From: Lycium barbarum
Taxonomy: Eukaryota > Streptophyta > Magnoliopsida > Solanales > Solanaceae
Length of the DNA stretch: 64,000 bases
Reading direction: 5' to 3'
NCBI RefSeq assembly: GCF_019175385.1
Contig: NC_083345.1
Location: forward strand, 14,718,027-14,782,026
The notes beneath the pieces were generated by a model. It worked only from the letters and a program-made list of their open reading frames with translations, was not told where the DNA came from and did no database searches. A program made the position numbers and the translations under genes. Shown one piece after another: positions 27,601 to 47,103 of the stretch (its first letter is position 1; the number at the start of each line of letters is the position of its first letter).

Positions 27601-27869
27601 TTGTGAATTATCATTAGTATAATCATTATTCAAAAAGTAATTCAAGTTAAATGCTAGAAACATTTGCTGACCCAAAACTAGTGTCATATTTCAGCTGCAA
27701 ATTGCTCCTATTAATATTAATATCCCTGAAGGATAAAGTATATAACATGCATGAAGCATGGTAGATCAATCGGTTTCAAATGAAATAATCCTTGAAAAGG
27801 GAGAGGAGAAAATGATCAAAATTGTCATAATAAGGAGGCAATGTGCTCTTGAAGAGAATACGACATAAC
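24693..27869 (+). pseudogene. Copia gag-pol remnant, 5' part
   Basis: No long frame survives. Pieces near 27100-27450 translate in shifting frames as GEYGPVH, then a stretch resembling LLAQNNCAKSTIFRLCNPD, and IAKSLLMRAKLHV. These correspond to the integrase core and the following region of copia polyproteins, and a later piece (QRWIPPKKMVHMLVFL) to the segment after integrase. Stops, frameshifts and a missing gag make it non-functional. It is cut at 27869 by the Ogre-like insertion. Confidence 0.7.
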
Positions 27870-30800
27870 TGTTATACCCCATTTTAACCGGGGTTGAAGC
27901 GGAGTACAACATATTGGAGATTCCTATATTGCTTTATTTTAAGGAGTCGCCACCTAATTAATTTAACGGTGAATTAGGACACCTAGATATTAACTAAGGT
28001 AAATCTAGCTAAACCTCCGTTAATAGTCTGCTTAATCAGTATGATTCTAGGTAAGGGTTCTATATTATCCTAAAGGGAAGGGGTTAGGCATCCTTTAGAA
28101 TCCGTTAACTACGGTTGTCCGGCCAAACTTAGGTTAATTAATTAAGATGAAAATTCATATAAAAAAAAGGGACTTTGAATGTCATTTTAAATAAAACTCA
28201 TAAATATAACTAAGGCTTTAAATCAAATGCAATTTAACAATAAAACTTATAAAAAGATGGTTTGCATAAAAGAGGATTTTAGATGCTATTTAAACAAGGC
28301 TTAAAATGTTGCTAAGACTTTATATGAAATATAATAAATGCATTTTAAGATAAAACTTGTAGGAAATATAACAATTTTTGCCTGTAAATAATAGCTTTCA
28401 AGAAAGAGATTTAGCAATTTTGAACTTTATGTGAATGTAGCAATGTAGAAAATCTAAGCTTATAAATAGAATTCAAAGGGAAGTGAATTTGCTTATTAAT
28501 TTGCTTATTAAATATGCTTAGTTAAAAATATGCATGATTGATTCAAACTTGAAGAGTTATCTATAAAATATAGTTGAATTTATACTTGCATATTAGTGAC
28601 GTTTTTGAAACATCTATAATGAAAACATGATTCCCTTTACTTAAAATATATAGTCATGCCATTTTGCAAATCAATTATCCCAAATAAAATGAAGCATGAA
28701 AAGAATAGTATTAACTTATGAAATTAATTGTTAGTATTCCTTAAACTAACTACCCATCACTAAAACTAACCTCCTAATTCATTAGGATTTATCTAAACTA
28801 AGAAAACAAAACAAACAAAGAGTTAGTTGCATAATACAAATTAAATGCATAAATAAATAAAGGGGGAAATAATTCAGATGGATTCAGCCCATTTTTTTTG
28901 TAAGAAAGGGGCTGCTGCAGTCGGACATGGGCTCAGCCCATTTTGAGGGATGACTGATCTGCTACTGTTGGGCCTTCGGCCCAGCAGTGTTCCTTTTTTT
29001 TTTTTTTAATTTATGATTCTGGGCTGCTGTTGGGCTGGACACGGAGAAGAATAATTCACGTTGGGCCTTAGCCCAAACCGAGCGCGGAAGGAGACGAGTC
29101 TCTCGGACTCGTATGCGGTGGTCATGCATAAAAACGAAAGAAAAAGATTAGTACATAATAAATAAATAAATAAATAAGACTAGACATATACAATGTAAAT
29201 TTAAAGGAAAGAACATATTAGTGACTCATATATATACTATGTATATCTGAGTATATCCCGATCAATCAACCATACGACAGTCACTGAATATCGCAGAAAT
29301 CAATTACAAAAACGTGCTAAGGCGGAGATTCTACACAACAGCAGCGGCAAGCAAAGGTTTACAGATTGTAAATAAACTTATGAATCATATAATCTCACGT
29401 AGGAGCATACCAGACAGAGCATAGCTACGGGCTTGAGGTTTAACATAAAGCATTTTTTGACCTTATTTAACTGAAACTAAACAAAAGCAGAATAGGGGAT
29501 TGTCATAGAAAGATAGGGGAAAGGGACCTCAGTCAAACAAATCAAACACTCAGTTTAGGACCTCTCACTTAAATAAATCAAACATGTCACAGGATGGCAG
29601 GAAGCATACAAATTCGATTATTCTGACGTGATAACAGAGCAATATCAGGTCTTAGCTGGATTCAAAATGGTATCAAAAATGCATAGATGAATTCAGAAAC
29701 TTGTACATGCTATAAATCAAAGAAAGGTGAAGGACAAGGAATCAGCTATGTTTTTCGAAAGGCAGAGGTTCTAAATGACCCTAGTAGCTAGATAATTCCC
29801 TTTCAGTGAGTTTAAGATTCAAATCCATCTCTGTTAACTTTACTCATCCTTTTTAAAATTTCAGCAAAAAAGAATACAAAAAAAACAGCCAACCATAACA
29901 ATGATTTATCGCGGCAGCAACAAAGGTTTACAAATTGTGAACGAACTCAAGAATCATGTAGCCTCGCATATGAGTATACAACAGTGGGCAGGTGATACAA
30001 TGGCATGTCAACCCTTTAATTTCCAAGATAGTATTAAATCCATTTAAGTCATCTTAAGACTCTTAAGCATATTATTCTTTTAATCATATCAGGATGTCTA
30101 AACTTCACATTATATCAAAGGTCAGTAAACCTATTGTGACAGCCAAGTTGCACATCTACAATTTTAAACATCAAACTGTCTCTCTCTATTTAAACCATAT
30201 TAACCTTTTATGTCACATTGCACACTTGTTCAGTCATGGCAGAATTATTAGGCAAGTTCGCAAAATCATACAGGCCCATTTTACCACTTCAAAGCCTTTT
30301 CATACTAGTATAGTAATACTTAATAAATAAACTTGCTGATGACAGCCACAAGAGCTAGACATGCATACCACATTCTTCCAAATAGACAAGAAAGCTAAAG
30401 CACCATAGCAACTAAACCAAATAAAACTGAAGAAACACACATAGTAGGCCAAACCAAGTAAGAGGTTAATTAACTGGATTCCAACATGATGATCCAAACA
30501 GGGATGGATGATCAACTTTCATGGGCTCAAAATGATAGATTAGGCAAAGCAGCCAAGCTAGTTAGGCACAGATGACAAACATAGTAGGGAGCATGGAGAT
30601 TAAACACCATGTCTAATCATGATGAGTTAAACACAGAAGAAATGGAACTGAACACTATAACTAAGCTAGATGAACTATGCTCAACATGGTGACAAGGAAA
30701 CTTGAATGCTACAGATTAATTCAAAGCAAAGAAACCGGAGAACTGGGCATCGTAACTAAACACGGTAGGCTAAACCAAACAAAACGATGAGCTAAAAATA

Positions 30801-32462
30801 TAACTGGATATGATGAATTGGATTAAAATAAAAAAAGGGTTATATCATATGCTTGGGGAAGTAGTAGGCAGAAAATAGACTAATATACACATAACATCCT
30901 GATTCAGGACCAATAACGCTCAGATTTTACAGCAGTTAACTAACCTATTCTAACCACAACAACACATAGACCAGGCAATGCAACACTTAAGACGAATTCA
31001 ATTAAAACAAGTCAAACTGAGGCCAACAAACTAAAGAAGCATAAAAGGGCAAATATGCTTATGCGAAAGAAGCATCAAACTGAAACAACATTCACATTTT
31101 TATTGAAACATTAAACATCTAGGTAAACATAATTATGTCAACAGAATCTCTGCTAAACTAGTATAGGGAATAATAATAAACCCAAACTAAACTGTGTCCA
31201 ATCATTATTGAGCGTGCAAACTATACTCAAACTACTATAAGCTGAATACATATGGCTAATCGAAAAAAAAACATAGAATGAATCATACAGAACAAACTGA
31301 AGGTAAGCACATGCACATTATTAGCAAGCTACAAACTGATATATGGAACCAACCAAATGAAGACTAAATAAGCAATGTGGACCTAATAAACACATGATTA
31401 ATCCAAATTGGTACCTAACATAGGACTGGATGATTACAGAATTCGGTACAGGATTAAATTAAGCTCAAACATGCATAATACAACCAAAGCGAACACATAT
31501 GAGAATATAAATCGTAACTGATCCAGCGAATCACATAAGTAGCTTAACCATTCGAACATTTACTGAAGAATAACTAATAGAGGGTGTATTACCTTCTTCG
31601 GGTGCAGCGAAGTGGAGTTCGAGCCTCCGATATACCTTGAAATACTTCAAAGCTCAAGCTGGAATTCACTCGGAACCAAAAACAGTAGCAAAGGCTAAAA
31701 AAATAAAAAAAATAAGGAAACGAAGACGAACTTCTTATTCTTGAAAACAATTTTCAGAAAAATCTTTGAAACTGCCAAAGATTCTTAACTTCTCAAAGAA
31801 AATCCTCTTCTTTTCCCCCCGCTACTGACTTGGGAAAACATTATTTATAACATCAATCTTAGGTTTGAACTAGGGTTTTCGTCCGAAAAGGAAGAGAGAG
31901 AGGAGCGTGGGGGGACAATATGAAGTGGGGAGTGACAGACGGAGTGGGGAACAGGCCATAGTGGTGTGGCAAGGATCACGTGGGGGAGATGAAGGAGAGG
32001 AGAAAGAGAAGGGGTGAAGGCGGCGGTGGAGGAGGAAAAATGAGAAGGGAACCCTAGGTTCCCTTCTTTTGGACGGGAATTGGGCCTCCGGGTCGGGTTA
32101 AAAAAATGGGCCAGTTTTGGCTAAAATATGGGCTGGGCAAAAGTAAAAGAATGTCAGGTAAATTAAAATGTGGACTGGTTCTTCGTGAATTGGTCCGAAA
32201 ATAGTATGAGTTGATTGGGCTACTACATTTAAATAAAGACCAATTTAAATTACTTAATATAAAATGTGCAATTACTAATACTCGGATAATAAATTATATG
32301 CCGTCATAATAGCAGTGCAATAATATTTGAAATTCAACAGTAAGTAAATGTTGTTATCTAATTATGCGAAGATAAATGTGGTGCGTGTGCGTAAGATGGT
32401 AAAAAATGCTGAAATGATAATTATGATAATACTGGTAATAATAATGATAATAATAATAACAA

Positions 32463-32502
<40 letters not shown>

Positions 32503-32666
32503 GTAGTGACGGTAGGAAAAGATAATGACAGGATAATGAAATGTCGGTATTAATAAAAGCTAATTATAGTAAAAAATGCAAATAATTATTTTTTAAAGTT
32601 GTCAAAATATTAGAAGCGAAAAATAGGTATTTTGGAGGAAAGGTGGGACAAAATTGGGTGTCAACA
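27870..32666 (-). repeat. 3' LTR of the Ogre-like element (4797 bp)
   Basis: It is almost identical to 41089-45879 with a constant offset of 13219 until a (TAA)n microsatellite near 32450. Seen differences include 28016 (C against T), 31211 (G against A) and a few near 32350-32545. It contains 'gggccttcggccca' hairpins and an (AATA)n run near 29158. The only open frames are short ones shared by both LTRs, unlikely to be genes. Confidence 0.93.
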
Positions 32667-32682
32667 ACTTGTCCCTCTTTGC
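32667..32682 (-). other. Polypurine tract candidate
   Basis: Read on the minus strand, 'gcaaagagggacaagt' directly precedes the TGTTGACACC start of the LTR, as expected for the plus-strand primer of a retrotransposon. Confidence 0.6.
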
Positions 32683-32701
32683 CCGGTAATGATGAAAAGA
32701 G

Positions 32702-33239
32702 TTGTCGGGCAAAGACGTTGACTTAGTAGCCTATTTTGTCCCGGCTAAAGGATTATGGAGGACTAAGGGTAAAGAAAATTACGGCCGAACTCTGGTCTCT
32801 GAATCGCCTACATATCTCGGGTTGTACGAGAATCAGGTCGTGTGTAGTTCTGGGATGACTACGACACCTATGACTGGCAACTCACGATTTGATGCGAATC
32901 TTCGCAAAAATATTGTCCCAGTATCGAGTTATGATGACACTGGGTATTGTGATAGAACTCTGAAAATTGAGTGTGCTGGAACACGAACGGGATATTTTGG
33001 AATTAGAGCCGAGTGTTCGAGGTAGATCTTTGACCCTTGTCGGGAAGTCTGCCTATCCTTCCCGACGTATTGCCCCAGTTCGCTGCCGAAGAAATAGTTC
33101 CGCGTTGCGCTAAAGCTCCTGCGAAACTTTAAACTAGATAAAAATAGTCAGTAAAAATAAATATTGGAATAAAGCGATGCAAGTGTGGTGCAATGCGGCT
33201 GCGAGCGCACGCAGGGGCATTTGAAAATAATAATAAAAC
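32702..33239. other. Non-coding interior next to the purine tract
   Basis: It contains one degenerate copy of the 'gaatcaggtc.....gtagttc' motif (about 32800-32850) that recurs through the element. The 107-codon open frame on the + strand is antisense to the element and looks fortuitous. Confidence 0.5.
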
Positions 33240-34020
33240 AAGGCAGGTGCGGTGCGATGTCTTATGCAGAAATTTTTCAAAGGGCGGTGCGCAGCCTTAT
33301 GCGGAAACTACAAAGGGCGGTGCGCAGCCCATGCGACATGAAAGGCGGTGCACAGCCTTATGCAGAAAATTTAAAGGGTGGTGCATGGCCTAGGCAATAT
33401 ATGAAAGCGATGCAAAGGGCGGTGCGCAGCCTTATGCGGAAATTTAAAAGGGCGGTGCATGGCCCAGGCAATATATGAAAGCGATGCAAAGGGCGGTGCG
33501 CAGCCCATGCATCATATGAAAGGCGGTGCGCAGCCTTATGCGAAAATTTTAAAGGGCAGTGCATGGCCCAAGAAATATATGAAAGCGATGCAAAGGGCGG
33601 TGCACAGCCTTATGCAGAAATTTAAAAGGGCGGTGCACACACTGCGACATATAAAAGGCGGACGAGCTTAAAATGTCCTATTAAAGGCGGACTAGCCTAA
33701 AATGTCCAATTAAAGGCGGACAAGCCTAATGTCATATTAAAGGCGGACAAGCCCAAATGTCCAATTAAAGGCGGACAAGCCTAAATGTCCTATTAAAGGC
33801 GGACAAGCCTAAATGTCCTATTAAAGGCGGACGGGCCTAAATGTGCTATTGAAGGCGGACGGGCCTAAAATGTCCTATTAAAGGCGGACGAGCCTAAATG
33901 TGCTATTGAAGGCGGACGGGCCTAAAATGTCCTATTAAAGGCGGACGAGCCTAAAATGTCCTATTAAAGGCGAACGAGCCTAAATCGTCCTATTAAAGGC
34001 GGACGAACCTAAAATGTGGT
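33240..34020. repeat. GC-rich tandem repeats inside the Ogre-like element
   Basis: Two families abut. About 33240-33650 has imperfect units with 'aaagggcggtgc.cagcc' plus 'ttatgc.gaaa' or 'aatatatgaaagcgatgc'. About 33650-34020 has some 13 units of 27-29 bases, 'attaaaggcggacgagccta' plus 'aaatgtcct'. Short open frames here are products of the repeat, not genes. Confidence 0.9.
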
Positions 34021-34039
34021 GCTTTTGCGAACAATGATG

Positions 34040-34320
34040 ATGTGCCTTTGCAGGGCATTTGAAAGTAATAATGTAATGCAGGTCCGGTTGCTTTTGCAGT
34101 GCGGGGCATTTGAAAACAGTAGTGCGTATACAGTGCGTGGTATTTAAAATAGTAGTGCATGCAGTGCGGGGAGTTTAAAGCAATAGTGCATATGCAGTGC
34201 GTGGTATTAAAAATAATAGTGCATGCAGTGCGGGGAATTTAAAGCAGCAGTGTGTGGTATTTAAAATAGTAGTGCATGCGCAGTGCATTTGAGAGCATTT
34301 GAAAGCAATAATATTTGTGC
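34040..34320. repeat. Degenerate 'gtgcatgcagtgcgggg' repeats
   Basis: Five or more imperfect copies combine 'gtgcatgcagtgcggg' or 'cagtgcgtggtattt' with 'aaaatagta'. They continue the repetitive interior of the retroelement. Confidence 0.7.
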
Positions 34321-34574
34321 GTCGACATGTTTGAAAAATCATTTGCAAGACTCAAGCATTAATTTATTGCGAACCTCGCAAATTATTGATACTCGAGAGG
34401 CATAATTGTTATAATAAAGATCAAACCGTTCGACGTGCAATCCTTGCAAGGCTGCGAACATTATATATTTTGGCTTCTGCAACTTGGGAACCGTGAAACA
34501 AAGCGAGCGTCCTTTCTCCCAAGTCTTTTTTTTGCCTGATGACTCTGTTGGTCGTATTCTCTTTCCTGTTTCTC

Positions 34575-34750
34575 GATGTCGCTTACGATGATGCCCTTAA
34601 AAATTGTCCCAGTTACTCGCATAAGAGGGTGTCGTTTTGCGATGATGCCCCTTAAAACTGTCCCAGTTTCTGGTATATGAGGATATTGAGCTTTTGCGGT
34701 GATGCCCTTAAAATTTGTCCCAGTTTCTGGTATAGGAGGATGTTGCTTTT
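34575..34750. repeat. Three copies of a roughly 60-bp unit
   Basis: 'cgatgatgcccttaaaa' followed by 'ttgtcccagttt' and 'ctggtataggaggatgttg' recurs three times with small changes. A copy of the 'gaatcaggtc' motif follows at about 34775-34820. Confidence 0.8.
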
Positions 34751-34849
34751 GCGAATGACGAGACCGAGCCTGACATAGGCTGCCTATGTATCCCACTAAG
34801 GGAATCAGGTCAAGCGTAGTTCAAATTACAAAGCAGAATAAAATTGAGA

Positions 34850-35060
34850 TAGAAGGCGGTGCTCGGTCTTATGCTAAAATTTCGAAAGGGCGGTGCTTAG
34901 CCTTATGCAGAAATTTCAAAGGGGTGGTGCACAACCCATGCGATATATAAAATACGGTCAAGCCCAAAATGTCCTATTAAAGGCGGACGAGCCTAAAATG
35001 TCCTATTAAAGGCGGACGAGCCTAAAAATATCCTATTAAAGGCGGACTAGCCTAAATGCA
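34850..35060. repeat. Second block of 'ggcggacgagcct' repeats
   Basis: The same units as at 33240-34020 reappear ('gaaagggcggtgcttagcct' and three 'attaaaggcggacgagccta' copies). The two blocks therefore come from one array that was split or duplicated. Confidence 0.85.
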
Positions 35061-35740
35061 GTGCTTGATTTATGATTACTAAAATTAGTGTGGAGCGAGG
35101 AGCTTTTGCGATGCTTTATTTGTATGTGGTGAGACGAGTTTGACGCAGTGCGTAATTTGCAGCAGCAAATATTCATGACGTAATGCCGAAGATTTGGGGA
35201 CCTTCTACCCTGCCAAAATTTGCATCTAAAAAAGTTCCTACACTCAAAGAAATTTGTGAGTTTCAATCTAATCAGTTTTAAGTTGTCTTTGCCCTTTGCT
35301 TTATCTGAATCTTGCAATTGCCGACTTGATACTGTGTGATATCCTTCAAGAATAGCTAAAATATGCCCCTGCGTTACTTAAAGAAAAATTTGTTAGTGTA
35401 AAATAAAATGGTTGCCTTGCATTGAACACTGAAGCTTTGGCATTGAATCTGCATTTCTCGTGGTGATGGCATTGCGACAAATCTGGTGACGCTAATATAT
35501 TGCTCGGGATTTCGATTCATGCTTTTGTCGAATAATGTTAGGCCATTTGCAAAGCTGCCCCAGTGTTGCTTTATGGGGAAGATGGAATTTTCACTATATT
35601 AAGACCGTGTCCGAGAATGAACTGCCTACTTATCCCGAAGGAATCAGGTCGAAAGTAGTTCATAACAAGCTTTAGCAAAATTACAAGAAGGAAAGCTGAT
35701 GGGTGGAGAATGCTAGTGACGGTAGATCCTTTCAATCGTC
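35061..35740. other. Interior of the Ogre-like element without genes
   Basis: In element direction this follows gag, where protease and reverse transcriptase would begin in a complete Ogre. I see neither motif. A copy of the 'gaatcaggtcgaaagtagtt' motif lies at about 35605-35665. Confidence 0.55.
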
Positions 35741-37288
35741 TTACTTAGTTCCACACTTCCTTTTCAAATGTCTCGGTGCCAATTTTGACAGATCACCGGT
35801 AACAATAATTGCATTTGCAACTGAAGGGCCATCATTGTCGCACAATTTATTTTTTTGCACACTTATCTTATCCTTTTCGATCATGTTCTGGATCTTATGC
35901 TTAAGAGCCGGGCAATTTTCTGTGTCATGACCTGGAATATTAGAGTGGTAAGCACAACTCTTGGACCAATCAAAATCTGGCGGTAGGCTTTTAGGGATCC
36001 ATCCTTTCTTTGGCTTCAGGAGTCCCTTGGCTTTCATTTTCTTAAATATGCTGGTTAATGACTCTTCAAGAGGAGTAAAAGTGCGGAATTTTGCGTGCTC
36101 TGACTGTCGTAAGCTAGACTGTGCTTGATCGGGTTGATTTTGAAAGCCTCGTTGATGAAGGTATACATGATCACGCGAACATTGATAGTTCTGCCGTGAT
36201 TGCGGCTGACGTGTAGACCTGACAGTTGAGTCGGTCTCTCTGTTTTTGCCTTGCAAGTTGTTGAATGTCTCGGCTTGAAAAGTTTCTTGTACTGATGAAG
36301 TGTCAACAATTCTTCCTGCTCGAATGCCCGCTTCTACTTGCTTTCCAACTTGAATTAAATTAGAAAAGTCGCGTAACCGCGCACATAACAACTTTTCATA
36401 ATATATGCCCTTTTGCATTTGGATGAAAGTTGAAATCAGCTCATTCTCGGGCAACGGAGGGTGTATTTTTTAAGCTTCCAATCTCCACCGGATGGCATAT
36501 TCCTGAAAAGACTCATGTGGCATTCTTTCTATCTCAAGCATATCATACAGATTTGGACTAACCCCGATGTTAAATTTGAAATGTTCTACAAAGTCGCGGG
36601 CCATGTCCTCCCATGTGTACCATTTGCGAAAGTCTTGTTCTGTGTACCAATCTAACGCCAACCCTGATAGGCTCTGAATGAACAATTTCATTCTTATGAC
36701 TTCATCTTGTCCAATTCCCATTAATCTGCTACAATAGTCCTTCAAGTACGTAACAGGATTTCCTCTGCCATTAAAGGTGTTGAATTTTGGCACTTTGAAT
36801 CCTGGCGGCAAATCAACATTCAGAAGCATGCACAAACTTTCATATCTTAAACTTTGGACGTTTCTTGCCTGCATCTCTTCTTCGATAATTCTCCTTAAAT
36901 TGTGAAGCTCTCTATTCGAGTTATTCTGATTGATTGCATTCGTTTCATTTCTCAATCTCTTGTGTGGGTATACCGCTAGCTGATTTTGCTGGTTTTCTGT
37001 GAAGGGCGCTGCAAGTGCAGGCTTTTGGGCATTAGGTATCAATGTGACTTGCAAAGCTTCTGGTTTAATAGAGTATCTTGGCGGTATGTTTGTAGGAGCT
37101 GGGTGAGGAGAAATAGTGAAGGAAATGTTTTGGGTAGAGCTGGAAGCTGAACTTGTGTTAGGAAGAAGGCTGAGGGTATTTCCCAAATTGACCAATACGC
37201 TTCTTTGTACTACATTCTTCTCGCTATCCTCATTTTGCGCTTGCACCAACCCCACACCGGTGTTGAATGACTCAAATTTTTTTGCCAT
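35741..37288 (-). pseudogene. Retrotransposon Gag with one internal stop
   Basis: Two frames, 36470-37288 and 35741-36454, are in phase and separated by a single TAA at 36470-36472, just after ...YAIRWRLEA. The first part has the Gag core: VPKFNTFNGRGNPVTYLKDY, then IQSLSGLALDWYTEQ and MLEIERMPHESFQEY. The second has NELISTFIQMQKGIYYEKLL and the zinc-type motif CAYHSNIPGHDTENC. The total is about 515 codons. Gag packages the RNA in cytoplasmic particles. The stop would give a truncated core unless read through. No protease domain follows. The rest of the frame is open, in keeping with the youth of the element. Confidence 0.85.
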
Positions 37289-38731
37289 TGTATCTCGTCC
37301 TTAATGCAGATTCGCAGCCAAAACAATGTTCAATGCCAGATAACCCGTAAAAGAAGGACACAAGAAGCTCTAGAATTTGTAGTCTGACGGTATCGTGACA
37401 GGCTGAATTGATGGCACGTAATCCTGATTTGATTCGTCTTTAATCTCGTCAACCTTCAAAAACAGGTGTATAAAGTTATAGAATTATTTTGATAAAAAAA
37501 AAAAAAAAAAAGATAAGGCTGAAAGCAAAGCCGCATGGCTTTTGAGGCGAGGCCACAATGGCCCTGATTGATAGACTTGATTGTTGATCTCGCGATTTTA
37601 AGTTCCTGCATCCAAAGAAAAATTCTCAGTTTGGGAGGGGGAAAGTTGATTCGTGTTGACTCGAAGCTTGACTTTGTTGGCGCCCCATTCATCCTGTTTG
37701 TTTGGATCTTACGGCCTCCGTTTAAAGCCTCGGTAGATGAACAGTAGTGAAACAATTGAAAGAAAGTCTTCCATTTGGAAAAATATATACGTAAGTGTAT
37801 GTATGTAAAGAAAGATATATATGAAAATATATGTATACAAGTTGTAAGATATTCCTGCTAACTTTCGATTGCGACACTTCCGAGAACTTTGAAAGGTCAT
37901 TTGTGTGTACTATTCTTGTCTAGTAGCCTTAATAGTGTCGATGTCCAACTTTTCTCTTGTCTAATCTTCCAAAATATGCCCCAGTTTTGATTCTGGAGGG
38001 TATACTAAACCTATGCTATGTTGTGACCGAACCTTGTATAGGTTGCCTACGTATCCACCAAGGAATCAGGTCCGAACGTAGTTCGTGACGCATAAGATAT
38101 TTTGGATGTTATAAAGCAACTGAACCCTATGTGGGCTGCCTACGTATCCCACCATGGGAATCAGGTCAGCGTAGTTCGGACGCATAAGATATTTTGGGTT
38201 TTTGTTATAAAGCAACCGAACCCTATGTGGGCTGCCTAAGGTAATCCCACCATGGGAATCAGGTCAGCGTAGTTCAGACTGCTGTTAAAGGAAAGGTTGC
38301 AAAACTAGATTGTCTTACCTATTGTCGTCCTTTGATTTGTTCTTGGATTGCTAGCTTTCAGGTTTACGTCATCACCTATTGGCTATTTAAAAATTCTTTC
38401 GAGTGGAATCTTGTCTTGTCCCCTAGTTTCTTTGTTACTCTCTCAGGATTTGTCTATTCGTTCATGTCACAATCGTAGAGTTGGCAGATTTGATAAGTAA
38501 AGTAGAAAAAAGATGATTAAGGAAAATCAGAAATGCATTCATAGTTTCGCAATTCAAGCTTCCACAAGGTGAAGCAAAACAAACAAAATTTTGGGTACGG
38601 TTCAAGCATCAATAAAAGAAAACAAGTTCACTACATGTTCATGCCACCAAGGCTCCTGGCGAATCAGGGACGGAGTACAAGTCCAGTTCTTCAGAGTCTC
38701 TCCTGGTTCTGCACCCTGGATGGTTGGTGTC
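37289..38731. other. Spacer between the two gag-type frames
   Basis: No long frame. It contains three copies of the 'ggctgcctacgtatccca' plus 'gaatcaggtc..cgtagttc' motif (about 38020-38085, 38105-38175 and 38215-38275), and an A run at 37495-37510. A minus-strand frame at 38602-38883 overlaps the end of the upstream reading frame in another phase and may be its frameshifted tail (it ends EPWWHEHVVNLFSFIDA). Confidence 0.5.
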
Positions 38732-39943
38732 TCAGTAGTTGTTGCACCAATCTTCACTGGCACTTGTTTTCGGATCATCCCCACAGGCGCAACGAACGTT
38801 GATGACACGCCTCTCTCTATCTTTTCCAATTGGCGTAACAGTATCCTTCCGATTCTTAACTTTTCGATAATTATCATGTTCACGTTGGCGTTTTCGTGAG
38901 TAGGAAAAGGGATGGCGATCCATATCGGGTCGAGCTCCAGTGAGCTGGATTGTTCCTTCCTTAATCAAGGCTTCGATTTTGCTTTTGAAGCCATAGCAAT
39001 CCTCAGTGGCATGCCCAGGAACTCCAGAATGATATGCGCAATGCTTGGAACTGTCAAACCATTTTGGGATAGGATTGAGAATTTTCCCTTCAATAGGTTG
39101 TACCACGCCTGCCGCTTTCAGTCTTTCAAATAGCTGAGACAAAGGTTCAGCGAACTGAGTGTAATTACGGGTGTTTTTTATGACAGGGTTTGGACGGGCT
39201 CTATGTGTGGTATGTGGTCGATTTCGGTGGGTGGAAATTTGGACAAATTGGTATGGACGTAAGTTTTGATATTGAGGTGCTCGGGGTTGGTAGTAATTTG
39301 GTTGAGTACTATAGACAGGGTAAGGGAATAGTGGAGCTTGGTAGGGTTCAACGTAATGGTAAGGGTAGAAAGGTTGTTGTGGATGGCCAAAGTATGTAAG
39401 GACTTGGTTTGGTGGGTTTAGAGGAGTAATTGTAGGTGGTGGGTTAGTGTTGGTGGGTAAAGCAATGTAAGGAGTATTACCTAGTGATTGATTTGGTGGG
39501 TTGACGGGTGGTGGATCAGGAGCGGCATAGGTAGTGTAGGTTAGAGGTAAGTTGTCGTTGGTAGATACAGTGTTCTGCGGAGGAAAATGTTCAGGGACTG
39601 GAGATTCAAGTGATGGAAAATGAGGCGGGTTTGATGCGACGTCCCTAGGTTCAGGAGGTGGACTTTGGAGTGTAACAGATGAGTTGGTCATGTTTCTAAC
39701 CCGATTCAGTTCTCTGCGTAGATCCTTAATCTCTTGAGTCAGGCGGGCAATATGTTCATCCTGTTGAATAGTAGTTCCATGTTCGGAAATCTCGGGCGGA
39801 TCGCTAGAGATCACGATATTTTCCACACCAGTTGAAATAGCTGCGGCCGGATCGGACATAGTAATTTCATTTCCTTGAACAGCCCAACTACGTTCAGGTA
39901 ACGACGACGTCTTTGACCTTGTGATGTAAGGATGGTCGGCCAT
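38732..39943 (-). CDS. First reading frame of the Ogre-like element, gag-type C-terminal motif
   Basis: The 403-aa protein begins MADHPYITRSKTSSLPE. It has a short coiled-coil segment (about 61-84, DEHIARLTQEIKDLRREL), a long Pro/Tyr/Asn-rich middle and, at residues 302-316, CAYHSGVPGHATEDC followed by YGFKSKIEALIKEGTIQL. The last motif is the zinc-type region of Tat-lineage Gag and is similar to the one in the downstream gag. The central Gag core (the LDWYTEQ region) is absent. It lies between the primer site and gag, the place of ORF1 in Ogre elements. It may be a gag copy that lost its core or a diverged accessory protein. It ends with a basic stretch and CGDDPKTSASEDWCNNY. The function is unknown to me. 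Confidence 0.75.
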   Translation of the reverse strand: MADHPYITRSKTSSLPERSWAVQGNEITMSDPAAAISTGVENIVISSDPPEISEHGTTIQQDEHIARLTQEIKDLRRELNRVRNMTNSSVTLQSPPPEPRDVASNPPHFPSLESPVPEHFPPQNTVSTNDNLPLTYTTYAAPDPPPVNPPNQSLGNTPYIALPTNTNPPPTITPLNPPNQVLTYFGHPQQPFYPYHYVEPYQAPLFPYPVYSTQPNYYQPRAPQYQNLRPYQFVQISTHRNRPHTTHRARPNPVIKNTRNYTQFAEPLSQLFERLKAAGVVQPIEGKILNPIPKWFDSSKHCAYHSGVPGHATEDCYGFKSKIEALIKEGTIQLTGARPDMDRHPFSYSRKRQREHDNYRKVKNRKDTVTPIGKDRERRVINVRCACGDDPKTSASEDWCNNY

Positions 39944-41067
39944 CGAATGTCAACACGAATCAACTCTCTTTGGGGAATAAGATAAACGAAACATAAAGTA
40001 TAAACGATGTTAGTGTCATGAGCATATCTAGGCAAAGTCATGATCACGTAAAGTCAAGTAAGGTATGTAGCAAATAATTCATCAAATAGAGTCAAACAAG
40101 TTGTCAAACAGATGTAAACGATTATATCAAATGATAACGCGTCCTAACATGCATGTGACCTCTTTGTGCCAGAGGTGGGCCTAACGTTGTTTGAAGGGTA
40201 AAAGTGTGTCATAATATGTCATCCTGTTGCTTTGATTAATTAAACGAATTCTATTTCCCCAAAATAAAGTACAAAACATTGTGTAACATTTATTAACACA
40301 TTAAATGAATACAACATGAAGTGTTTCCTAATCTGAGTAAAGTAAATACAGCTTCCTATGTCTAACTTCTAGCTCCGTTTTTGATGTCCTTGATCTTCGT
40401 CATTTGTTGTACTCCAATGCAAATCCAACCCTGTCATAGAAACGTTAGTCATCCCCTCTTTCCTAAAGTTTAATTAATTAGAGCAAATAGTCAATATTTA
40501 GGCACAGTTATCCTTCAAACATGCATATAAAGTATGATTGGTGTCACTTGGGGGTCGTGAACCCGCTTGGATTTTGGTAATGTTTACTAATGGACTTAAT
40601 ACACCTTGGGTATTAAGCCTCCTAGGCTCGTGCATGTCCTTAAAAGGTTTTGGTTTTCGCTCTACCTAGGTAGACTAAGAGAGGTTTTCCTATGACGCAA
40701 GGTTCCCCCAAGCGGAAAACTTGGGAGTGGAAAGTCTGTGGCCGTCGACTGCACCGCCGATCGACTAAATCCACTAGATCAATCCAACTAAAGGGGTAAT
40801 TTAGTAGTGCACGGGCGCGAACCGTGAAGCCGTTTTAAGTGTGTGAATATGTGTGAGTTTTCCAGAAATGGAGGAAATATGAACGGAATGTCAGTTTAAG
40901 AAAGCAGTAACATATTATTACATGGAAAATTTCACATAATAAAACAATCACTTAAAAGAACATAAGAGAAACAAATAAAGCAACAATAACGGCAAAAATA
41001 AAGAAAACCAACCAAACATCTAACAAATTAATTTTTAACCTAAGTTTGTTATGGTTAGAACCTATGG
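39944..41067 (-). other. Untranslated leader of the Ogre-like element
   Basis: About 1.1 kb between the primer site and the first long reading frame. I see no frame with homology. It contains a 'ggggtaatttagtagtgcac' stretch and several AT-rich segments. Confidence 0.5.
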
Positions 41068-41085
41068 TCCCCAGTGGAGTCGCCA
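41068..41085 (-). other. Primer-binding site, tRNA-Arg type
   Basis: Read on the minus strand, TGGCGACTCCACTGGGGA starts three bases after the LTR end. It is complementary to an arginine tRNA 3' end (TCCCCAGTGGAGTCG plus CCA), as I recall it from plant tRNA-Arg genes. Ogre elements use a tRNA-Arg primer, so this fixes both orientation and lineage. Confidence 0.8.
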
Positions 41086-41088
41086 AGC

Positions 41089-44000
41089 TGTTATACCCCA
41101 TTTTAACCGGGGTTGAAGCGGAGTACAACATATTGGAGATTCCTATATTGCTTTATTTTAAGGAGTCGCCACCTAATTAATTTAACGGTGAATTAGGACA
41201 CCTAGATATTAACTAAGGTAAATCTAGCTAAACCTCTGTTAATAGTCTGCTTAATCAGTATGATTCTAGGTAAGGGTTCTATATTATCCTAAAGGGAAAG
41301 GGTTAGGCATCCTTTAGAATCCGTTAACTACGGTTGTCCGGCCAAACTTAGGTTAATTAATTAAGATGAAAATTCATATAAAAAAAAGGGACTTTGAATG
41401 TCATTTTAAATAAAACTCATAAATATAACTAAGGCTTTAAATCAAATGCAATTTAACAATAAAACTTATAAAAAGATGGTTTGCATAAAAGAGGATTTTA
41501 GATGCTATTTAAACAAGGCTTAAAATGTTGCTAAGACTTTATATGAAATATAATAAATGCATTTTAAGATAAAACTTGTAGGAAATATAACAATTTTTGC
41601 CTGTAAATAATAGCTTTCAAGAAAGAGATTTAGCAATTTTGAACTTTATGTGAATGTAGCAATGTAGAAAATCTAAGCTTATAAATAGAATTCAAAGGGA
41701 AGTGAATTTGCTTATTAATTTGCTTATTAAATATGCTTAGTTAAAAATATGCATGATTGATTCAAACTTGAAGAGTTATCTATAAAATATAGTTGAATTT
41801 ATACTTGCATATTAGTGACGTTTTTGAAACATCTATAATGAAAACATGATTCCCTTTACTTAAAATATATAGTCATGCCATTTTGCAAATCAATTATCCC
41901 AAATAAAATGAAGCATGAAAAGAATAGTATTAACTTATGAAATTAATTGTTAGTATTCCTTAAACTAACTACCCATCACTAAAACTAACCTCCTAATTCA
42001 TTAGGATTTATCTAAACTAAGAAAACAAAACAAACAAAGAGTTAGTTGCATAATACAAATTAAATGCATAAATAAATAAAGGGGGAAATAATTCAGATGG
42101 ATTCAGCCCATTTTTTTTGTAAGAAAGGGGCTGCTGCAGTCGGACATGGGCTCAGCCCATTTTGAGGGATGACTGATCTGCTACTGTTGGGCCTTCGGCC
42201 CAGCAGTGTTCCTTTTTTTTTTTTTTAATTTATGATTCTGGGCTGCTGTTGGGCTGGACACGGAGAAGAATAATTCACGTTGGGCCTTAGCCCAAACCGA
42301 GCGCGGAAGGAGACGAGTCTCTCGGACTCGTATGCGGTGGTCATGCATAAAAACGAAAGAAAAAGATTAGTACATAATAAATAAATAAATAAATAAGACT
42401 AGACATATACAATGTAAATTTAAAGGAAAGAACATATTAGTGACTCATATATATACTATGTATATCTGAGTATATCCCGATCAATCAACCATACGACAGT
42501 CACTGAATATCGCAGAAATCAATTACAAAAACGTGCTAAGGCGGAGATTCTACACAACAGCAGCGGCAAGCAAAGGTTTACAGATTGTAAATAAACTTAT
42601 GAATCATATAATCTCACGTAGGAGCATACCAGACAGAGCATAGCTACGGGCTTGAGGTTTAACATAAAGCATTTTTTGACCTTATTTAACTGAAACTAAA
42701 CAAAAGCAGAATAGGGGATTGTCATAGAAAGATAGGGGAAAGGGACCTCAGTCAAACAAATCAAACACTCAGTTTAGGACCTCTCACTTAAATAAATCAA
42801 ACATGTCACAGGATGGCAGGAAGCATACAAATTCGATTATTCTGACGTGATAACAGAGCAATATCAGGTCTTAGCTGGATTCAAAATGGTATCAAAAATG
42901 CATAGATGAATTCAGAAACTTGTACATGCTATAAATCAAAGAAAGGTGAAGGACAAGGAATCAGCTATGTTTTTCGAAAGGCAGAGGTTCTAAATGACCC
43001 TAGTAGCTAGATAATTCCCTTTCAGTGAGTTTAAGATTCAAATCCATCTCTGTTAACTTTACTCATCCTTTTTAAAATTTCAGCAAAAAAGAATACAAAA
43101 AAAACAGCCAACCATAACAATGATTTATCGCGGCAGCAACAAAGGTTTACAAATTGTGAACGAACTCAAGAATCATGTAGCCTCGCATATGAGTATACAA
43201 CAGTGGGCAGGTGATACAATGGCATGTCAACCCTTTAATTTCCAAGATAGTATTAAATCCATTTAAGTCATCTTAAGACTCTTAAGCATATTATTCTTTT
43301 AATCATATCAGGATGTCTAAACTTCACATTATATCAAAGGTCAGTAAACCTATTGTGACAGCCAAGTTGCACATCTACAATTTTAAACATCAAACTGTCT
43401 CTCTCTATTTAAACCATATTAACCTTTTATGTCACATTGCACACTTGTTCAGTCATGGCAGAATTATTAGGCAAGTTCGCAAAATCATACAGGCCCATTT
43501 TACCACTTCAAAGCCTTTTCATACTAGTATAGTAATACTTAATAAATAAACTTGCTGATGACAGCCACAAGAGCTAGACATGCATACCACATTCTTCCAA
43601 ATAGACAAGAAAGCTAAAGCACCATAGCAACTAAACCAAATAAAACTGAAGAAACACACATAGTAGGCCAAACCAAGTAAGAGGTTAATTAACTGGATTC
43701 CAACATGATGATCCAAACAGGGATGGATGATCAACTTTCATGGGCTCAAAATGATAGATTAGGCAAAGCAGCCAAGCTAGTTAGGCACAGATGACAAACA
43801 TAGTAGGGAGCATGGAGATTAAACACCATGTCTAATCATGATGAGTTAAACACAGAAGAAATGGAACTGAACACTATAACTAAGCTAGATGAACTATGCT
43901 CAACATGGTGACAAGGAAACTTGAATGCTACAGATTAATTCAAAGCAAAGAAACCGGAGAACTGGGCATCGTAACTAAACACGGTAGGCTAAACCAAACA

Positions 44001-45879
44001 AAACGATGAGCTAAAAATATAACTGGATATGATGAATTGGATTAAAATAAAAAAAGGGTTATATCATATGCTTGGGGAAGTAGTAGGCAGAAAATAGACT
44101 AATATACACATAACATCCTGATTCAGGACCAATAACGCTCAGATTTTACAGCAGTTAACTAACCTATTCTAACCACAACAACACATAGACCAGGCAATGC
44201 AACACTTAAGACGAATTCAATTAAAACAAGTCAAACTGAGGCCAACAAACTAAAGAAGCATAAAAGGGCAAATATGCTTATGCGAAAGAAGCATCAAACT
44301 GAAACAACATTCACATTTTTATTGAAACATTAAACATCTAGGTAAACATAATTATGTCAACAGAATCTCTGCTAAACTAGTATAGGGAATAATAATAAAC
44401 CCAAACTAAACTGTGTCCAATCATTATTGAGCATGCAAACTATACTCAAACTACTATAAGCTGAATACATATGGCTAATCGAAAAAAAAACATAGAATGA
44501 ATCATACAGAACAAACTGAAGGTAAGCACATGCACATTATTAGCAAGCTACAAACTGATATATGGAACCAACCAAATGAAGACTAAATAAGCAATGTGGA
44601 CCTAATAAACACATGATTAATCCAAATTGGTACCTAACATAGGACTGGATGATTACAGAATTCGGTACAGGATTAAATTAAGCTCAAACATGCATAATAC
44701 AACCAAAGCGAACACATATGAGAATATAAATCGTAACTGATCCAGCGAATCACATAAGTAGCTTAACCATTCGAACATTTACTGAAGAATAACTAATAGA
44801 GGGTGTATTACCTTCTTCGGGTGCAGCGAAGTGGAGTTCGAGCCTCCGATATACCTTGAAATACTTCAAAGCTCAAGCTGGAATTCACTCGGAACCAAAA
44901 ACAGTAGCAAAGGCTAAAAAAATAAAAAAAATAAGGAAACGAAGACGAACTTCTTATTCTTGAAAACAATTTTCAGAAAAATCTTTGAAACTGCCAAAGA
45001 TTCTTAACTTCTCAAAGAAAATCCTCTTCTTTTCCCCCCGCTACTGACTTGGGAAAACATTATTTATAACATCAATCTTAGGTTTGAACTAGGGTTTTCG
45101 TCCGAAAAGGAAGAGAGAGAGGAGCGTGGGGGGACAATATGAAGTGGGGAGTGACAGACGGAGTGGGGAACAGGCCATAGTGGTGTGGCAAGGATCACGT
45201 GGGGGAGATGAAGGAGAGGAGAAAGAGAAGGGGTGAAGGCGGCGGTGGAGGAGGAAAAATGAGAAGGGAACCCTAGGTTCCCTTCTTTTGGACGGGAATT
45301 GGGCCTCCGGGTCGGGTTAAAAAAATGGGCCAGTTTTGGCTAAAATATGGGCTGGGCAAAAGTAAAAGAATGTCAGGTAAATTAAAATGTGGACTGGTTC
45401 TTCGTGAATTGGTCCGAAAATAGTATGAGTTGATTGGGCTACTACATTTAAATAAAGACCAATTTAAATTACTTAATATAAAATGTGCAATTACTAATAC
45501 TCGGATAATAAATTATATGCCGTCATAATAGCAGTGCAATAATATTTGAAATTCAACAGTAAGTAAATGCTGTTATCTAATTATGCGAAGATAAATGTGG
45601 TGCGTGTGCGTAAGATGGTAAAAAATGCTGAAATGATAATTATGATAATACTAGTAATAGTAATGATAATAATAATAATAAACTAATAATAATAATAATA
45701 ATAATAGTAGTAGTAGTAGTGACGGTAGGAAAAGATAATGACAGGATAATGAAATGCCGGTATTAATAAAAGCTAATTATAGTAAAAAATGCAAATAATT
45801 ATTTTTTAAAGTTGTCAAAATATTAGAAGCGAAAAATAGGTATTTTGGAGGAAAGGTGGGACAAAATTGGGTGTCAACA
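41089..45879 (-). repeat. 5' LTR of the Ogre-like element (4791 bp)
   Basis: Partner of 27870-32666. It is identified as 5' because the primer site adjoins it and the gag frames read away from it. The microsatellite near 45660-45720 differs in structure, with (TAG)n after (TAA)n. Confidence 0.93.
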
Positions 45880-47103
45880 ATAACACTTCATGAAACCTAA
45901 TGAGAAGTTTAGGTACCTAAAATAATGAAAGTGATGAGATCTCAATAAGTTATGTCACATTGCGAACCGATACAAATGATATATCGTCGACGATATCTTT
46001 GGTACAATATAGCGCAATATTTTACAAGATTGTGAGGATCTGAATTCTGTGTCTATAAAGCATGCTAACATAGACATTATTCCCAAGTGAAATGATGCAT
46101 TCTGGTAAGCTTCAAGCTTATTGGACCTGTAGTCCAGACAATCAGAAAATGTCACGCATTTAAATATTGATGGATATTGTCACTTGACAAAATTAATATG
46201 AAAATTCTTCAAGCAAGGTTCTAAAATTCTTGAAGCATATACAGGTTCTAAAAATCTATTCATAATTCTTATATGGATTAAATCAAGCAAGGTGAATGCA
46301 ATTTTATCACAATGAGTATTCATTGACTAAGGGTACACATGACTCTACTATCCTTATGTGTTTATGAGTGTAAATTGATTACTTGAATATTATTCGAACT
46401 CTTGAAGAGTTTTCACAAGCAATAGATTATCTACTTAAAGAAGTTGAAATGAGAAGCTTGCATAATTCTTTGGTCTTGAAGTGCCATATCTTTATGCAAT
46501 TGATGCATTTATATATTTTGCTATGACTACGAAGAATTACAGTCATATGGTGTTGTTCTACATGACAGTCAAATCATATAAAGATAACATATGTTTATAA
46601 AGCAAGTAAGAAATGTACTTGTTATACGCTGATGCAACTTTATCCAAAGACTGAAGATGCAGCAGCATACATAGCCCAACTAAAGGGAGGATTCATATAA
46701 GGAGATAGAACAAAGATTTCACCAAAGTTGTTCTTCACACACGATCTCCAAAGAATGATGATCTCAACGTGCAACAGATTCGTTCAAGTGATAATGTGGT
46801 TGATTTGTTCCCCAAGTCTCTACCAACAACAACTTTCGAGAAGATGATGCACGAGATTGGAATGCGAAGATTCAAGTTTTGGATTTATGTTCTCATCTGG
46901 GGGAGTTAATACGCGTTGTACCATTTTTCCCTTAACCAAGATTTTGTCCCAATTGGATTTTTCTGGTAAGGTTTTTAATGAGGCAGCCAAAATGCTTATT
47001 ATTATAAATGTGTACTCTTTTTTCTTGAATTTTTCTCACTGGATTTTTTCTAGTAAGGTTTTAATGAGGCATATTATCTATCAAATAGACATCCAAGGGG
47101 TAG
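45880..47103 (+). pseudogene. Copia pol remnant, 3' part
   Basis: Broken frames continue the copia polyprotein after the Ogre-like insertion. Near 46620-46870 the RNase H tail is clear: an AQLKGGFI-like piece, then SSDNV, DLFPKSLPTTTFEKMMHEIG and MRR, close to the usual copia ending. Upstream pieces are too decayed to read with confidence. The 47091-47103 purine tract and right LTR follow. Confidence 0.7.

Follow-up and report, generated by a model that had tools for sequence, protein, structure and literature searches.

A young Ogre/Tat-type retrotransposon in Lycium barbarum with two Gag-derived frames, no pol and probable mobilisation in trans

The DNA considered here, 64,000 nucleotides of Lycium barbarum chromosome 9 (C9:14718027-14782026, C standing for chromosome), is called the window throughout, and a number prefixed with w is a position in it. 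It lies in an assembly of 1.67 Gb, the size also of a published haploid L. barbarum assembly with 12 chromosomes (PMC8175696). On the minus strand of the window lies an 18-kb retrotransposon with two long terminal repeats (LTRs) and, between these, an interior of 8.4 kb in which two Gag-type frames, here ORF A and gag-B, were found, and no pol. An earlier note on the same DNA had taken it for a very young Ogre-like element that a partner elsewhere in the genome had recently moved, in the manner of a TR-GAG. Our own reading, held with a good deal of confidence, is that a non-autonomous Ty3/gypsy element of Ogre/Tat type has recently inserted here, and that it would have been mobilised in trans and would have recombined via template switching.

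Structure, age and coding content

Aligned to each other the two 4.8-kb LTRs differ by 11 transitions, one transversion and one 6-bp gap (Kimura two-parameter distance 0.0025; blastn identity 99.65%), so that the 'about eight' substitutions previously counted by eye was close to the 12 present. The target site duplication (TSD), GTTAT on the strand of the element and ATAAC on the other, is perfect on both flanks, and a purine tract and a PBS-like sequence are present; a very young insertion, as first claimed, is what the LTR distance gives. Plant substitution rates of 1.3e-8 and 7e-9 per site per year put the insertion at about 0.10-0.18 million years ago. It is possibly younger still, since an AAT microsatellite near the LTR start (w32413-32502 and w45632-45706), which differs between the two LTRs and inflates their apparent age, contains or adjoins the gap and 7 of the 12 substitutions.

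The Pfam scan covered 10 of the 34 listed interior frames and in these gave sub-threshold matches only, of which one is meaningful, to Retrotrans_gag in gag-B at E 0.006 and 17.2 bits (cut-off 24.1). Sensitive tblastn of the 8.4-kb interior with the protease, G-patch, reverse transcriptase (RT), RNase H/integrase and ORF1 proteins of a pol-bearing relative, considered below, found nothing beyond chance for RT, RNase H, integrase or protease. The sole match on the pol side is of 35 amino acids from the end of a gag-pro frame (w38751-38647, to L017 8332-8835, E 1.5e-7), and everything besides this remnant and Gag has an E of 0.02 or more, ORF1 included (best E 0.02, not beyond chance). The claim that pol is lacking is thereby borne out, no RT or integrase domain having turned up in the interior, and a longer element collapsed by the assembly is not what is seen either: seven other copies that were read share the interior layout. 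That there are two gag-type frames stands as well, with the qualification that ORF A has no capsid domain and that gag-B is interrupted in this copy by an in-frame stop at w36470-36472. The features are collected in Table 1. Tandem arrays make up much of the 3' untranslated region, and related elements carry similar arrays at the same place.

Table 1. Features of the element and its flanks, in window positions
Feature	Position	Strand	Basis or remark
LTR element, whole	27870-45879	-	
TSD, downstream copy, ATAAC on the plus strand	27865-27869	.	sequence and LTR alignment
3' LTR, 4797 bp, starting TGTTGACACC and ending ATAACA	27870-32666	-	blastn, alignment, TG...CA ends
Polypurine tract	32667-32680	-	sequence
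3' untranslated region; holds several tandem arrays whose repeat units are about 29, 31, 54 and 104 bp	33249-35056	-	
gag-B, the second Gag; 515 codons broken by one in-frame stop, coding for a capsid region and a zinc knuckle	35741-37288	-	
93-bp tandem repeat, spacer separating the two gag frames	38026-38279	-	
35-amino-acid remnant of gag-pro frame end, out of frame with ORF A	38647-38751	-	tblastn
ORF A, 403-amino-acid Gag, capsid region removed in frame	38732-39943	-	
5' leader	40441-41088	-	79-91% identical, in whole or part, with related pol-less and pol-bearing elements
Primer-binding site (PBS-like), TGGCGACTCCACTGGGGAC	41067-41085	-	sequence; presumably of tRNA-Arg type
5' LTR, 4791 bp	41089-45879	-	last 276 bp (41089-41364) 97.5% identical to the chromosome 10 copy
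TSD, upstream copy, ATAAC on the plus strand	45880-45884	.	sequence

The two Gag-derived frames

ORF A consists, in order, of an N-terminal part, a proline-rich part, a zinc knuckle and a basic tail. The closest protein found, P0001, is a 685-amino-acid L. barbarum Gag with Retrotrans_gag, to whose residues 1-186 and 509-677 ORF A aligns, the stretch between being missing and its sides joined in frame. Beyond the zinc knuckle the frame departs from that of P0002, a related L. barbarum protein, so that the basic tail is a new one, and the P0002-like reading persists in a frame overlapping ORF A. Splicing as the source of the capsid cut was rejected, there being no GT-AG at the junctions read in one donor element; short CCAA-type microhomology at the cut, seen by eye, is better fitted by deletion or template switching. 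A 333-amino-acid Solanum commersonii protein, P0003, also lacks the capsid part, and is not counted as the same protein because its borders are different and its knuckle appears damaged by eye.

The closest capsid-bearing Gag found for ORF A is that of the P0001 type, gag-C (72% identical over 42% of ORF A, 74% in a separate alignment), and the gag-C leader is 82.5% identical over 1264 bp. As a complete parent gag-C was tried and set aside: the DNA lying 1.9-3.1 kb downstream of one gag-C gene holds tandem repeats and sequence like the 3' region here, and no RT. Here and below, counts taken from scored lists refer to best-scoring places, among which open frames are over-represented. No gag-C locus among the best-scored 65 has one of the 104 best-scored RT loci within 15 kb, a weak test, and the gag-C family may itself be without pol. 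It is also very abundant: the best 65 of 18363 candidates are all 93% or more identical and 59 of them have no stop, an example being the P0001 gene at C8:9472596-9474650.

How much does ORF A matter to the elements that carry it? It is without a stop at 85 of the best 103 loci (from 9309 candidates; 18 have a stop). Among 22 ORF A regions that were read, being the window copy, seven other full copies and a further 14, the frame is open at full length in 17 (394-424 amino acids), ends at 380 amino acids in one and is broken or incomplete in four. For selection 18 of the 22, those longer than 350 amino acids, were used, and the statistic w between two groups of nine is 0.44 (bootstrap 0.32-0.70, on 4 x 4 rows), with a neutral mean of 0.67 (0.38-1.05); for the successive parts it is 0.30 (codons 1-95), 0.69, 0.42 and, in the tail where changes are few, 1.72. 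Differences at codon positions 1, 2 and 3 number 2406, 2743 and 3174, a small third-position excess. Strong purifying selection on ORF A was thus tested for, with w and with counts of changes, and ruled not established.

The most likely role would be that of an accessory Gag binding RNA to mark or condense it, capsid being provided by a sister gag-B or by a helper; in order of preference this or no role at all comes first, and interference with the helper after them. That ORF A is a mere passenger, open owing to the youth of the copies and their descent from few masters, with gag-B and the cis signals doing the work, is a serious contender which we nevertheless hold to be rather less than probable. 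From codon 96 onwards nonsynonymous changes make up the fraction expected under neutrality (558 of 1000 simulations at or below the observed), and neither the w of the tail, resting on few changes, nor the slight excess at third positions speaks for constraint. Against this, the first 95 codons gave 20 such simulations per 1000, a signal that may be older than the loss of capsid or a product of recombination; the 17 open copies of the 22 read compare with an expected 0.40 or so per copy, reckoned for half the average pairwise divergence, with substitutions as the sole source of breaks, and for copies that are not independent; and the proportion of scored loci without a stop is about that of the helper-type RT (84 of 104), in two lists that both favour good copies.

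That ORF A brakes the helper in trans, as a piece of Gag that disturbs the helper's particles in the way of p22 of yeast Ty1, is unlikely. p22 retains part of the capsid and ORF A has none of it, and a benefit to its own element was not seen here. In favour there is the plain fact that ORF A is a shortened Gag, free of stops at most of its best-scored loci, and a truncated Gag does restrict Ty1 (PMC4599808).

The second frame, gag-B, is a Gag of a diverged kind. In the window copy it is 39% identical over 287 amino acids to the Gag of pol-bearing L017/L018, and that of L019 is 43% identical to the same Gag over 238; a gag-B2 subfamily (L010, L028) is about 52% identical to L019. Sequence just upstream of gag-B in L013 and L021 matches L018 at 78-79%, in the ORF1-gag spacer and the final part of ORF1, with 17 amino acids of ORF1 matched in L013, and gag-B therefore seems to occupy the gag position of a complete Ogre. 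Elements with gag-B and no ORF A gave no pol match in the pieces read. Purifying selection is found between B1 and B2 (0 of 500 simulations) and within B1 (10 of 500), in tests that exclude L009, L012 and L013, whose gag-B is broken or cut, and L029-L035, L056 and L057; it may have acted in an older, complete ancestor.

The frame has no stop at 57 of the best 84 loci (from 12270 candidates; 27 have one). The stop of the window copy recurs in L031 and L032 and is absent from the closest sisters of these two, L034 and L033, and from the interior twin of the window copy, L029, a scatter that suggests exchange between copies or ancestral polymorphism; gag-B is open in other copies. With the window copy included, ORF A is open in all eight full copies read and gag-B in two, and the idea that gag-B decays faster was rejected, the independent events being few and three copies sharing one stop. 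Where an ORF A is also listed, gag-B has a stop at 1 of 29 loci, as against 26 of 55 where none is; made with a query taken from an element that lacks ORF A, the list favours intact two-gag copies, and nothing is concluded from it.

The family, its mosaic structure and its candidate helpers

With w35000-41088 as query, six of the best 26 of 5397 candidates, not counting the window itself, are 92-98% identical over nearly all of the 6.1 kb, and one more, on C8, is 95% identical over most of it. These seven were read: 93.9-98.4% identical to the interior here and with the same layout, they have ORF A open in 7 of 7 and gag-B open in 2 of 7. Further, 29 loci occur in the lists of both ORF A and gag-B, on one strand and 1348-1748 bp apart; both frames lack a stop in 25, gag-B alone has one in 1 and ORF A alone in 3. 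C8:114.4M is counted both here and among the seven, and several of the 29 are neighbouring tandem copies. These counts confirm a family, within the limits of best-scored lists. Since the layout recurs in the seven copies and the 29 loci, and since gag-B elements without ORF A gave no pol match, loss of pol would have long preceded the insertion considered here. The interest is more in the family than in the single copy of the window.

Copies of the two-gag and gag-C families are also found head to tail at even spacings of 11-18 kb, at C1:171.35-171.38M, C6:101.76-101.78M, C9:2.78-2.81M, C10:7.62-7.65M, C2:127.53-127.56M and C3:8.28-8.31M, as expected of tandem LTR elements that share an LTR.

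The copy with the most similar interior is a twin at C10:12.57M (L029), 98.4% identical over 6.1 kb. Its LTRs match those of the window element only over their final 276 bp, at 97.5%, and over short stretches of 62-245 bp that are 76-89% identical. Measured in blocks of 100 and 200 bp, identity to the twin stays at about 97-100% between w41364 and roughly w35.5 kb and is 94-96% on to w35.1 kb; 3' of this it varies from 74 to 99% per 100-bp block in repeat-rich sequence, with unique blocks at 95-97%. The twin's own LTR pair has 9 mismatches in the 4319 bp compared (99.77% identical) and, each pair being near-identical, both copies are young. The exchange of LTR between the window copy and the twin type is clear.

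Each LTR type has other partners. The middle 2 kb of the window-type LTR is found in full length at 98-99% only at C9:24.4M and C10:91.5M, and otherwise at 92% at most and in part (best 40 of 422 candidates). C9:24.4M has both gag frames, with another ORF A subtype and a gag-B 95.8% identical to that of the window; in C10:91.5M the 1.4-kb piece read is gag-B2. C9:24.4M was considered as donor of the whole 3' end and rejected: it supplies a match for the LTR middle only and, like C10:91.5M, is absent from the best 40 of 1540 candidates for the 3' region. None of 25 listed two-gag loci is within 20 kb of a place with the window-type LTR, the pairing at C9:24.4M having been found separately. The C10-type LTR start recurs on the two-gag copies C12:92.4M (96-97%), C2:153.5M (87-89%) and C11:98.2M (83%). 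Over the eight copies mean identity is 80.1% (70.9-99.2) in the first 500 bp of the leader, 93.2% in the next 500 bp and 97.1% (95.7-99.0) in the 3.8-kb gag cassette, w39588-35789. One young cassette housed in several older shells is the simplest reading.

What could have moved such elements? A pol-bearing relative, L017/L018 at C5:137.41-137.43M, encodes, in frames that are interrupted, RVT_1, RT_RNaseH, RVT_3, rve, G-patch, Retrotrans_gag and an ORF1 of Plant mobile domain (PMD) type. In L017 RT_RNaseH (28-130), RVT_3 (188-305) and rve (472-569) place a second RNase H between RNase H and integrase, and L018 has the ORF upstream of gag, PMD/DUF7745. This relative resembles the window element, at identities of about 89-93%, in its LTR start, in its LTR end together with the early leader, and in part of the 3' region. 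RT relatives are numerous: the best 104 of 65657 candidates are all 94% or more identical and 84 have no stop. Three of the 104, C3:123.00M, C9:20.47M and C5:137.42M, have on the same strand, 9.0-9.3 kb off, an LTR start 89-91% identical to that of the window, and the frame holding RT is open for 1157 codons at C3:123.00M and 1176 at C9:20.47M. These three loci are candidate helpers for the window element.

Transcription from the LTR would give an RNA whose LTR ends, PBS, leader and polypurine tract could be used by a helper, and which carries two Gag-derived genes besides. It would be packaged with Gag of a helper or a sister, and RT, RNase H and integrase from complete Ogre-type elements elsewhere in the genome would carry out reverse transcription and integration. 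Should the growing strand switch templates between co-packaged RNAs, an interior of one origin would come to be joined to the U3 and LTR of another. For an element that is young and pol-less, with many copies of the same layout and pol-bearing relatives similar in LTR start and leader, mobilisation in trans is the natural reading; the recent movement by a partner claimed earlier is well supported by these four points, and the use of proteins in trans is what we infer from them. A more particular form of the same idea, a split-Gag parasite in which ORF A would handle RNA, gag-B would give capsid, Ogre helpers would provide pol and a nearly uniform two-gag cassette of about 4 kb would be re-housed by template switching in LTR shells of diverse kinds, is put forward tentatively, and we think it somewhat improbable as a whole.

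Several points weigh against mobilisation in trans with template switching. Use in trans, packaging and movement are all deduced from sequence. The pol-bearing relative matches the ends and part of the leader at about 90%, and no match to it was seen in the LTR middle. The best match to the 3' region of the window copy is at 93%, with the twin at 92% (best 40 of 1540 candidates); a second exchange in this region is possible, though not pinned, the low identity to the twin being due in part to tandem repeats. For ORF A as a whole 78 of 1000 simulations fall at or below the observed value, so that purifying selection on the whole frame is not established. Lastly, gene conversion or unequal recombination between copies already inserted could also yield mosaics.

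That the mosaic arose in this last way, by gene conversion or ectopic recombination among genomic copies in place of template switching, we consider doubtful. The evenly spaced tandem copies do suggest unequal recombination in these families, but both LTRs of the window copy are of the same type within a perfect TSD, and the border of similarity lies 276 bp from the LTR end, at a plausible U3/R border, as strand transfer predicts. A one-off deletion derivative of a full-length Ogre, which lost pol in or just before this copy and was dead on arrival, accords with the stop in one gag frame and the survival of a gag-pro end remnant, and is already refuted by the layout held in common by the seven read copies and the 29 paired loci, and spoken against by the ORF A-less gag-B elements, unless all copies are duplicates of one insertion, which makes it very improbable indeed.

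As to the neighbourhood, frames for a Frigida-like protein at w59414-60529 and w56586-57089 on the minus strand, probably exons of one gene, lie about 11 kb from the element. On the plus strand are a PMD frame (w321-1097), a SecE-like frame (w14597-15181; 20.2 bits with a cut-off of 22.7), possibly plastid SecE, and a fragment at w54264-54791 with a Self-incomp_S1 match over 36 amino acids. A tandem duplication of 852 bp, 99.2% identical, occupies w7153-8851.

Relation to known systems

Surveys of plant genomes count elements that have Gag and no pol. The function of Gag in such elements, and the matching of helper and cis signals, are open questions for which the two-gag family offers a test system: two Gag-derived genes, one of them without capsid, are open together in many copies, and sisters and pol-bearing relatives are in the same genome. 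The mosaic structure suggests, in addition, that coding cassette and LTRs may have separate histories, which affects classification and any dating that assumes a single one.

A TR-GAG, reportedly defined by Chaparro in 2015, has LTRs and Gag coding and no pol. The window element has the two LTRs, PBS, polypurine tract and TSD expected of one, and it has no protease, RT, RNase H or integrase apart from the 35-amino-acid end remnant of gag-pro. It departs from a TR-GAG in not having a complete Gag frame, gag-B carrying a stop and scoring below the Retrotrans_gag cut-off and ORF A lacking capsid; other members do have one, gag-B being without a stop at 28 of the 29 paired loci. It departs also in having two Gag-derived frames in 18 kb, where described TR-GAGs have a single Gag frame and are short, with a median of 4837 bp (PMC8704663, PMC10025401). 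One TR-GAG has moved in Arabidopsis ddm1 (PMC8704663). The window copy thus works like a TR-GAG, or like wheat Sabrina below, and strict membership fails for it; the plain TR-GAG of the earlier note does not survive the capsid-deleted ORF A, the interrupted gag-B and the recombinant make-up of interior and LTR modules.

In Ogre elements tandem repeats separate the coding sequence from the 3' LTR, and the window element has such repeats ahead of its own 3' LTR. The element resembles pol-bearing L017/L018 in the PBS region and the LTR ends, in part of the leader and in the 3' region. The second RNase H between RNase H and integrase, and the extra ORF upstream of gag, are lacking in the window element, which has neither pol nor an ORF1 match, and are present in L017 and L018, respectively. 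Large retrotransposon derivatives (LARDs) have a large non-coding interior, and the interior here carries two Gag-derived frames. Retand elements of Tat carry an antisense ORF, TRP28, ahead of the 3' LTR, and antisense frames are among those listed for the window element. The complete Ogre lineage of Tat has been described (PMC6317226), and defective Retand clusters have been tabled, none of those in the table being without aspartic protease, RNase H and integrase together (PMC11963269). Literature searches on TR-GAG and Ogre elements, on semi-autonomous elements of Solanaceae and on Ogre/Tat elements of Lycium brought up, among the papers listed, no description of a Gag with its capsid deleted that is accompanied by a second Gag.

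Closest in working is the complex of RLG_Sabrina_SA, RLG_WHAM and RLG_Wilma in wheat, in which high-copy Gypsy families described as without RT and integrase keep GAG or GAG-Pro and are thought to be moved by a complete relative; Sabrina_SA and WHAM are termed semi-autonomous and Wilma the helper, and shorter Sabrina variants have other sequence in place of the GAG-Pro segment (PMC9744471). The element of the window differs in being of Ogre/Tat type, in a 1.67-Gb Solanaceae genome, and in having two Gag-derived frames, one without capsid; its family, unlike the Sabrina complex, has different LTRs around one cassette. For exchange of this kind there are precedents in Onsen, for which recombination between co-packaged RNAs, including recombinant LTRs, has been reported (PMC5668417), and in a soybean pair of autonomous and non-autonomous elements with LTR swapping (Du 2010, as cited in PMC5668417). 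Recombinants between members of a family are common to these and to the present case, with the difference that here it is pol-less families, and a two-gag cassette, that have taken part in the exchange.

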